Assembly: GCF_002252755.1 (NCBI RefSeq)
Contig: NZ_NHOY01000013.1
Location: 1-64,000, forward strand
Direction of reading: 5' to 3'
From: Halorubrum sp. Hd13
GTDB lineage: Archaea; Halobacteriota; Halobacteria; Halobacteriales; Haloferacaceae
Length of the DNA: 64,000 nucleotides
The notes below the pieces were generated by a model. It was given only the letters and a program-made list of their open reading frames with translations. It was not told the DNA's origin and made no database searches. Shown here piece after piece: positions 31,341-33,398 of this stretch (its first letter is position 1; every line of letters starts with the position of its first letter). The position numbers and the translations under genes are program-made.

Positions 31341-32192
31341 TCACGCCTCGCGCTCGAACGACGGGTCGAACAGCCGCGCCGACATCGGCGCCGGGTCGCC
31401 CTCGGTGAGGTTGTAGTCGGAGAAGTCGGTGACGCCCGCCTCCCGGAGCAGCGCCTCGTCGTAGAAGCTCTCGCCGGTGCACTCCGAGGGGTCGCGCGCG
31501 AGGATCTCGAGCACCGCGTCGGAGACGATCTCCGGGGTGCGCCAGTCGTCCTCGGTCCCGAGCCCGAAGTAGCGGGTCGCGCGGGTGTCGATCGTCGTCA
31601 CCGGCCAGAACGTGTTACAGCCGACGCCGTCGCTCGCCAGCTCCTCGGCCAGCGAGAGCGTGATGAACGACATCCCGAGCTTCGACCACGCGTACGGCGC
31701 CTTCCCCGGCGAGCGGTCGGTCACGACCGGCGGCGAGTTCGACAGGAACCACGCCTCGTCGAGCCCCGCGAGGTGGTCCGCGAACGCGTGCGCGACGAGG
31801 TGGGTACCGCGGACGTTCACGTCGGTCAGGAGGTCGAACCGATCGGCCGGCAGGTCGGCGACGTTCGCGAGCTGGATCGCGCTCGCGTTGTTGATCACGA
31901 CGTCGACCTCGCCGAAGCGGTCGATCGCCGCCCCGACCGCCGCCTCGACGCGGTCCTCGTCCCGGAGGTCGAGTTCGAGCGCGAGCGCCTCGGCCCCGCG
32001 GTCGCGCACCTCGCGGGCCGTCCGCTCGATCGACCCCGCCAGCTCGGAGTCGTCGTCGTCGGTCGTCTTGCCCGTCGAGACGACGTTACAGCCGCGGTCG
32101 GCGAGCGCGAGCGCGAGTTGCTTGCCGATGCCGCGGGTCGTTCCGGTGATGAACGCCGTCGAGCCCGAGAGGTCGGGGTCCGCGAGTGCCAT
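31341..32192 (-). CDS. Short-chain dehydrogenase/reductase (C-terminally extended)
   Basis: A 283-residue SDR starting MALADPDLSGSTAFITGTTR. It has the TGxxxGIG cofactor motif (TGTTRGIGKQLA), the NNAS motif (VINNASAIQL) and an active-site region with SNSPP before YAWSK (YxxxK). This resembles the HSDL2-like or 'SDR family' oxidoreductases that end in a substrate-specific lobe. A minus-strand TATA (32214-32225) is about 28 nt before the ATG. Confidence 0.9.
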   Translation of the reverse strand: MALADPDLSGSTAFITGTTRGIGKQLALALADRGCNVVSTGKTTDDDDSELAGSIERTAREVRDRGAEALALELDLRDEDRVEAAVGAAIDRFGEVDVVINNASAIQLANVADLPADRFDLLTDVNVRGTHLVAHAFADHLAGLDEAWFLSNSPPVVTDRSPGKAPYAWSKLGMSFITLSLAEELASDGVGCNTFWPVTTIDTRATRYFGLGTEDDWRTPEIVSDAVLEILARDPSECTGESFYDEALLREAGVTDFSDYNLTEGDPAPMSARLFDPSFEREA

Positions 32193-32253: not shown

Positions 32254-32267
32254 GATATTTAAATATC
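32254..32267. promoter_or_regulatory. Palindromic TATA element of the structured-RNA locus
   Basis: GATATTTAAATATC is a perfect 14-bp palindrome in an otherwise GC-rich gap. On the plus strand it is centred 27-29 nt before the first hairpin of the candidate RNA (32289). Being symmetrical, it could also serve leftward transcription. Confidence 0.5.
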
Positions 32268-32286
32268 AATAAGCGAAGACGACGAT

Positions 32287-32540
32287 CAGTTGTAAACAAC
32301 AACCGCGGTGGCGCGTGCCTCCGAGCGCCCTTCGGGCGCGAGGAGCACGCGCGAGGGAGGCGGTCGCCCGAGCGAAGCGATGGGCGACCGGCGAGGCTGG
32401 GGAGGCGTGAGGTGCGGTCGCTGTGTGGGGCGGGACTCAAAGGGGCAGCCGCGCTCGACGAACCCCAGCGACGCAAGGACCACAGGGAGCGTAGCGACCG
32501 AGGACCGCAGCAAGCTGTGGGAGTCGAGCGCGGCTGCCGC
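32287..32540 (+). ncRNA. Candidate structured non-coding RNA
   Basis: No convincing protein is encoded on either strand, but base-pairing is dense. A 5-bp hairpin (GTTGT/ACAAC) is at 32289-32300. A long rod at 32311-32352 has GCGCGTG/CACGCGC, CTCC/GGAG, a symmetric GA/GA internal loop, and a 6-bp GC stem with a TTC loop. A 9-bp stem at 32361-32369/32382-32390 encloses GA-GC-GAA-GC-GA, again tandem G-A. A perfect 16-bp long-range helix pairs 32444-32459 with 32523-32538, enclosing CCCCAGC/GCTGTGGG (with bulge) and ACGC/GCGT stems. The recurrent GA/GA loops are typical of RNA rather than DNA function. The palindromic TATA at 32254 would start transcription at about 32287. Strand and ends are inferred. 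Confidence 0.45.
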
Positions 32541-32679
32541 TTCGGAGGTGTTCTCCGCCGATCCGTCAGCGACTATTTATAAGCGAGCGACTGCCGCTTC
32601 GGAGGTGTTCTTCGCCGATCCGTCAGCGACTATTTATAAGCGAGCGGCTGGGGCTTCGGAGGTGTTCTCCGCCGATCCG
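32534..32679. repeat. 57-bp tandem repeats, each with a TATA box and hairpin
   Basis: Units start at 32534, 32591 and 32648. The first two are full length and differ at two positions; the third keeps only the first 30 or so bases. Each unit has a CGGAG-GTGTT-CTCCG hairpin (G-T pair in unit two), then GCCGATCCG. The two full units end with CTATTTATAAGCGAGCG, a TATA-like core readable on both strands. The first unit overlaps the end of the 16-bp helix of the candidate RNA. Confidence 0.85.
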
Positions 32680-32693
32680 AACTCGATCGAGTC

Positions 32694-33398
32694 CTATCGC
32701 GTCGCCGACTTCCACTCGCGCAGCCCCAGTCGCTCGCCGTTCAGCTCCTCGGCGGGCGCCTCGGTGGCCGCCCAGACGAACAGCGGCGCGACGCTCTCGG
32801 GGTCGCGAGCGCGCTCCATGCCGGTGAGGTCGGTGGCGACGAGTCCCGGGTCGACGACGCCGACCGTCGCGTCGAGGTCGGCCGCGAACCCGCGCGCGAC
32901 CGCCTCGGCCGCCGCCTTCGAGACCGCGTACGCGCCCATCCCGGCCTTCGACTCGTGGGCGACCGACCCCGAGGGGACGATCACCCGCGCGTCGTCGGCG
33001 AGGTGCGGGACCGCCTCGCCGATCGTCGCGAAGGCGCCGCGGGCGTTGGTGCGCATGGTGTCGTCGTAGTCGGCGTACGAGACCTCGTCCGTCGGGCTCT
33101 CGCCGGGGCCGCCGTGAAAGACGGCGGCGTTCGCGAGCACGACGTCGATCGGTCCCCCCTCGCGGGCGGCCCGCTGGAAGAAGCGCTCGAGGTCGAACTC
33201 GTCGCGGACGTCGACGCGCTCGCCCCACGCCTCGCCGGCGGCGCCCTCCCCGTCGCCGTTCAGCTCCGCGACGGTCCGATCGACCGCGTCGCCGTCGCGG
33301 CCGGAGACGGCGACGAACGCCCCCGCCTCGACGAACGCCTCGGCAACCGCCCGCCCGATCCCGCTCGTTGCGCCGGTGATCGCGACCGTCGGATCCAT
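32694..33398 (-). CDS. SDR-family oxidoreductase
   Basis: A 234-residue classical short-chain dehydrogenase. It has TGATSGIGRAVAEAF (cofactor binding, residues 8-22), VVLANAAVFHGG (NNAG variant), IVPSGSVAHES with the catalytic Ser, and YAVSKAA (YxxxK). C-terminal substrate loop: VATDLTGMERARDPESVAPL. A minus-strand TATA-like CCTAAGTC lies about 28 nt upstream. Substrate unknown. The 57-bp repeat block lies immediately past its stop. Confidence 0.9.
   Translation of the reverse strand: MDPTVAITGATSGIGRAVAEAFVEAGAFVAVSGRDGDAVDRTVAELNGDGEGAAGEAWGERVDVRDEFDLERFFQRAAREGGPIDVVLANAAVFHGGPGESPTDEVSYADYDDTMRTNARGAFATIGEAVPHLADDARVIVPSGSVAHESKAGMGAYAVSKAAAEAVARGFAADLDATVGVVDPGLVATDLTGMERARDPESVAPLFVWAATEAPAEELNGERLGLREWKSATR

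Follow-up and report, generated by a model that had tools for sequence, protein, structure and literature searches.

Identity of the element in the window

What occupies the intergenic stretch between two short-chain dehydrogenase genes of Halorubrum sp. Hd13: a gene for a new regulatory RNA, a mobile repeat, or a repeat that carries an RNA-like domain? We analysed 64,000 nucleotides around it (the window), for which an earlier note, made by reading the letters, had proposed a structured, promoter-bearing RNA locus that encodes no protein, belongs to no known family and may be multicopy or mobile. A sequence search identified positions 32,284-32,700 as one copy of a multicopy element. On balance we think that this element belongs to an ancient, class-wide family of non-autonomous mobile repeats with a strand-specific folded domain (P3), which is most likely RNA; its high copy number, intergenic placement, covarying fold, mobile P3 domain, exchange of stems between copies and presence at inversion breakpoints all support the mobile-repeat reading. 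Every anatomical feature listed in the earlier note was found in the sequence, including the position between two PF00106 genes and the tail of three tandem 57-nt units (32,530-32,700):

31,341-32,192, reverse strand: flanking gene, short-chain dehydrogenase (PF00106)
32,254-32,267, no strand assigned: TATA-like palindromic box GATATTTAAATATC, 14 nt, which some copies have as an optional 5′ unit
32,290-32,297, forward strand: TTGTAAAC, a decayed TTATAAA box; an intact box precedes most Halorubrum copies
32,305-32,352, forward strand: hairpin P1, with a symmetric tandem GA/GA internal loop
32,360-32,391, forward strand: hairpin P2, with a GC-GAA-GC tip
32,392-32,431, forward strand: joining stretch CGAGGCTGGGGAGGCGTGAGGTGCGGT..., purine-rich and near-invariant
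32,433-32,546, forward strand: P3 module, an irregular hairpin conserved class-wide (101 bits here with model R1)
32,444-32,459, forward strand: 5′ arm of the P3 closing helix (16 bp)
32,523-32,538, forward strand: 3′ arm of the P3 closing helix (16 bp)
32,530-32,586, forward strand: tail unit 1, 57 nt, ending with TATTTATAAGCGA and doubling as the 3′ strand of P3
32,587-32,643, forward strand: tail unit 2, 96% identical to unit 1, also ending with TATTTATAAGCGA
32,644-32,700, forward strand: tail unit 3, 72% identical to unit 1, decayed past about 32,679
32,694-33,398, reverse strand: flanking gene, short-chain dehydrogenase (PF00106), abutting the element's tail at its 3′ end

P3 (about 115 nt) is the most conserved part of the element. 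Its closing helix is a perfect 16 bp with 63 nt between the arms (a repeat search gives 20-nt arms that are 95% complementary). The stem of P1 is swapped among copies and P2 varies in both length and sequence, with pairing kept in each.

As the earlier note supposed, the locus is not a protein gene: there is no conserved reading frame, a stop codon occurs in each frame in 22-30 of 34 copies within 270 nt of the start, and the long forward frame at 32,308-33,069 is not conserved among copies. Comparison with Rfam gave no credible match for the window region at E values up to 5 and no match at the gathering threshold for nine related loci, in agreement with the claim that no known RNA family is present. 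No description of the element was found in the literature searched (open-access full texts only), and the class-wide covarying P3 domain appears to be undescribed; among known elements, haloarchaeal MITEs, PATEs and SMRs come closest.

Distribution and genomic placement

The element is present in all 24 Halorubrum genomes covered by a whole-genome search, with weak matches in others, so the locus is multicopy as predicted; copies of the genus type belong to Halorubrum. A profile search found about 16 copies per 400 kb in one Halorubrum genome (G008), 4 per 400 kb in another (G021) and one in the 64-kb window, so that totals of tens to more than 100 copies per genome are extrapolations. The P3 domain reaches much further: across the class Halobacteria a covariance model (R1) detected it in 244 of the 292 genomes sampled, and in 65 of the 77 genera. 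Across a sample of the phylum R1 matched 29 of 197 genomes, all within the window's own order, and P3 was found in no sampled genome outside the class. A pattern search of named genomes returned at least 119 stretches, all of them haloarchaeal among the matches listed. A covarying fold of very high copy number across almost a whole archaeal class, absent from Rfam, is a large component of haloarchaeal genomes that annotation has missed.

The copies are strictly intergenic, with 0 of 186 overlapping a gene as called by a simple codon-usage caller. The four possible orientations of the neighbouring genes occur at similar rates (18/19/19/11 in Halorubrum and 26/34/35/24 class-wide), which excludes a leader or terminator bound to one gene orientation, and such near-random orientation argues against an ordinary cis-regulatory RNA. 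A virus- or plasmid-borne element was likewise rejected (0 viral contigs, 0 phages, 5 plasmids). Outside Halorubrum, back-to-back P3 pairs with a palindromic centre are seen at seven loci (L127, L135, L146, L155, L161, L171, and L196); some of these pairs have a common centre like GGTCAGCCGACACGGG.

Folding and covariation

The forward strand of the window copy folds to -164 kcal/mol, against -135 ± 5 for dinucleotide shuffles (z -5.8; 0 of 200). The reverse strand also folds beyond its shuffles (z -5.4), as palindromes are expected to do. In the full-copy alignment of 53 Halorubrum copies the joining sequences are invariant and the arms of the hairpins are rewritten jointly; the 3′ hairpin, P3, is the portion common to copies beyond Halorubrum. 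The covariation score was 0.635, compared with 0.198 ± 0.009 in shuffled controls (0 of 500). Among 86 P3 sequences, 93.7% of the cells are paired, versus 67.1 ± 0.8 in shuffled controls and 24-44% in slid ones, the slid control being somewhat favourable since the P3 structure came from that same alignment; double changes occur at 20 of the 21 pairs. Many of the irregular 2-bp steps and internal loops of P3 covary as well, and the same set of positions does not vary across the class, several of these being unpaired. The claim of a structured locus is supported, with strong base-pair covariation, and those refuting tests of the earlier note that were run all spoke for it.

Nearly all P3 modules keep facing GGG/GGG (or GG/GG) runs beside AAAG:CTTT, at which a G-quadruplex within or between copies could form in 2-4 M intracellular KCl; the window copy has no facing G runs and reads CTGCCGC.

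Strand selected to fold

The two strands can be told apart by isolated mismatches within stems of at least 10 Watson-Crick pairs. These number 76 G·G, 35 G·T, 8 A·C, and 3 C·C, and in random genome stretches GT and AC are symmetric. The excess of G·T over A·C argues that selection acts on the forward-strand fold, whether this forms in RNA or in single-stranded DNA. The GT excess is seen with a stem minimum of 8 or 10 pairs and is absent at 6 (GT 55 versus 67); it was not found in P1 and P2 taken alone, so the strand bias rests on P3. An earlier test on whole P3 modules had given the opposite sign (AC 153 versus GT 77), having scored internal-loop letters as mismatches, and is superseded by the long-stem test.

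From the sequence comparisons, the folded domain is likely to be RNA rather than single-stranded DNA. The rival reading, which we regard as unlikely, is that of a repeat like the enterobacterial REP/BIME, in which the fold works as single-stranded DNA bound by an enzyme or by a protein that organises the chromosome, with no RNA needed, and the divergent module pairs are an archaeal counterpart of BIMEs. The intergenic, orientation-neutral placement, the high copy number and the paired modules of other genera, set back to back around a palindromic centre, all fit it; tolerance of GT fits single-stranded DNA hairpins also, and so does the tip of P2, GC-GAA-GC being a very stable hairpin tip in DNA. 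Covariation of irregular 2-bp steps and internal loops speaks against it, since an RNA or a protein-binding domain would show this more typically.

Promoter-like boxes

The 14-nt palindrome, which the earlier note took for the promoter, is kept in most orthologous copies of the window site but is not the regular box of the family; that is instead TTATAAA, about 17 nt upstream of GGTGGCGCG in 23 of 34 copies (a TTTAAA-like box lies farther upstream in 6 of 34). In most Halorubrum copies TTATAAA lies 5′ of the core and P1, at a distance that hardly varies. TATA-like boxes also occur 20-60 nt past P3, in 59 of 115 copies compared with 0.6% of random 46-nt windows, and in some copies the last tail box sits, by eye, at the expected promoter position of the next gene; many copies put TATA boxes between genes. 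The TATA-bearing 57-nt tail units might add promoters usable by the downstream gene or by an antisense transcript. In Halorubrum the boxes are real and conserved, but in other genera an upstream TATA box is found in only 3 of 49 modules; the promoters therefore belong to the Halorubrum form and not to P3 itself.

These boxes bear on the reading that the earlier note proposed, a multicopy family of regulatory RNA genes with their own promoter and with mobility secondary. We consider it improbable. A covarying, strand-specific fold, a TATA box that most Halorubrum copies have at a fixed distance 5′ of P1, and orthologous copies retained over long times (see below) are what such a family would show; however, with the usual archaeal spacing, a start directed by the 5′ box would fall inside P1, the upstream box nearly disappears in other genera (as the REP/BIME-like reading would have it), and tens to more than 100 diverged copies with frequent loss or truncation would be unusual for a regulator.

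Mobility and associated insertion sequences

The suggestion that the element is mobile is supported in two ways: P3 lies within miniature transposons of other genera, and near-identical Halorubrum copies lie at unrelated sites. In three genomes, all outside Halorubrum (those of L104, L166, and L123), the terminal inverted repeat GTGTTCARMTAMGC occurs 138, 58, and 40 times, versus 1, 7, and 3 times for a reversed control. P3 is present in about two thirds of 30 GTGTTCARMTAMGC loci, typically between inverted ends 199-217 bp apart. Target duplications of 8 bp were found at L282 (TCGGCCAG) and L286 (CTCATCAA), and are partial or imperfect at L287, L295, and L307. Ends identical to those of these miniature elements bound a 689-bp insertion sequence that has no P3, copies of which (L288, L291, and L309) also show an 8-bp target duplication; its 213-aa product, a putative transposase, matches PF13610 (DDE_Tnp_IS240; E 1e-5, 26.2 bits, just below the cut-off of 27). 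The shared ends, the target duplications and the lack of P3 in the insertion sequence indicate that P3 rides in MITEs in these genomes.

The IS6-type inverted repeats occur at chance level in Halorubrum copies, that of the window included, and the window copy is for this reason not filed as an IS6/IS240-type MITE. Two Halorubrum copies at unrelated sites (L315 and L316) match at 96.5% identity along a tract of exactly 340 nt, and this pair has neither a target duplication nor terminal inverted repeats. The Halorubrum termini TCAGTACAG and GAAACACCCG, tried as putative ends, proved rare.

In a REP/RAYT system the Y1 (RAYT) transposase gene has palindromic repeats on either side. The element is absent from all 30 Y1 (HUH) transposase loci searched in the genus (100 kb), and in several genomes rich in copies no Y1 gene scores above the cut-off; an IS200/605-type (Y1) partner was rejected for the 30 loci tested. 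Both results weigh against the REP/BIME-like reading, as does the apparent use of a DDE transposase with target duplications in the three genomes with inverted repeats. The element resembles enterobacterial REP/BIME in being an extragenic palindrome of many copies, often in inverted pairs, with one defined folded strand, but differs in this missing Y1/RAYT partner, in a much longer and more elaborate fold, and in its tandem, TATA-bearing tails.

The other known systems are closer in some respects. With IS6-type MITEs it shares, in the three non-Halorubrum genomes, the placement of P3 between IS-shared ends and the 8-bp target duplications, but the conserved part here is the interior fold, not the ends; to our knowledge, MITE interiors are not expected to covary over a whole class. 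ISFinder lists MITEHarch3 within IS6 (PMC6807381), and its likeness to the present element is judged from that listing as an IS6 MITE. PATEs of Haloquadratum are palindrome-associated transposable elements whose near-terminal palindromes are related to IS605-type transposons; like the element, they are non-coding, palindrome-bearing and diverged, with dozens to hundreds of copies per genome, and, like the Halorubrum duplicates, they have no inverted ends and no target duplication (PMC3119063). Unlike PATEs, here judged by their description, the element showed no IS605-type link at the 30 Y1 loci.

Taken together, the mobile-repeat reading would have copies spread by transposases supplied in trans, as the IS6-type ends in three non-Halorubrum genomes suggest, and then kept alike by ectopic gene conversion. 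Retention would then depend on a factor, from the host or from the element, that binds the folded transcript or single strand; this binding might serve, for instance, to terminate or insulate transcription or to assist mobilisation, and we consider it the most likely reason for conservation. We put forward more tentatively, and with some doubt, that P3 may be an undescribed functional RNA domain, expressed from tens to more than 100 copies per genome, domesticated from mobile elements or carried selfishly by them, and that it may be catalytic or have a protein partner dedicated to it. If RNA, it would add a class-wide family to a domain with few known; if DNA, it would be an archaeal counterpart of REP/BIME repeats.

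Orthologous sites and exchange of stems

Three orthologous sites were compared in 22 genomes. At the window site the element is present in all six other species that retain both genes adjacent, where the unique flank is conserved and the P1, P2, and P3 stems are replaced on both arms. At the second site most species have it whole, two have it truncated and one (G021) lacks it. At orthologous sites, the element is thus mostly common to species rather than newly inserted. In two orthologues with flanks 94-97% identical (G016 and G022), three base pairs are changed on both arms. Selection can produce such double changes, and so can conversion between copies or DNA synthesis templated by a hairpin. 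At one locus (L231; G007:C119) the inner part of P3 is inverted, the 5′ GGGGCAG having become CCCCAG, and a perfect palindrome results, which is likely a hairpin-templated replication event; since such correction occurs, not every double change need reflect selection. Stems are also exchanged as blocks: L313 and L314 are 98.8% identical across P2-P3 with a wholly different P1, and the combinations of P1, P2, and P3 are distinct in 46 of the 53 copies.

These observations could be read as neutral palindromic junk, namely old MITE remnants whose stems are kept complementary solely by hairpin-templated synthesis and gene conversion. The perfected, inverted palindrome of L231, the stem mosaics and conversion tracts, and the truncated and lost copies would all follow, but the class-wide invariant positions, several of them unpaired, would not, nor would the strongly strand-asymmetric mismatches, which undirected DNA correction would not give. 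We therefore think this reading very improbable; the strand bias implies that selection acts besides hairpin-templated synthesis.

Inversion breakpoints and nested inserts

In the window's own genome two inverted copies about 16 kb apart enclose a segment whose orientation is reversed in five other species, and in a 15-kb stretch of G008 (C1:1425000-1440000), compared with G004, G003, and G002, synteny breaks at elements. Whether it acts as RNA or DNA, the element helps explain Halorubrum inversions and assembly breaks. In the G008 comparison, some draft-genome contigs end at element positions.

The element also hosts other repeats. Three copies (L219, L220, and L225) carry a twin-hairpin insert of about 48 nt between P1 and P2, which reads CCAGCGAG...CTCTGGC.GCCGGCG...CGCCGGCGACCTCGC on the locus forward strand; it is present in G012, G015, and G016, not in G022, and resembles the SMRs said to enter PATE palindromes. 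SMRs are small mobile repeats of Haloquadratum that insert into palindromes of other elements (PMC3119063). Nested inserts, seen in L219, L220, L221, and L225, are the point of likeness; the element itself is unlike SMRs in that it hosts such inserts, is larger, and has no terminal inverted repeats in Halorubrum. Two unrelated P3 copies (L113:1737-1873 and L204:1744-1881) have an insert in common, GTGGTTCGAGACGCCTCCGGCGTCTCGTCATCACGAAAGG..., which is a further small hairpin element that targets the repeat.
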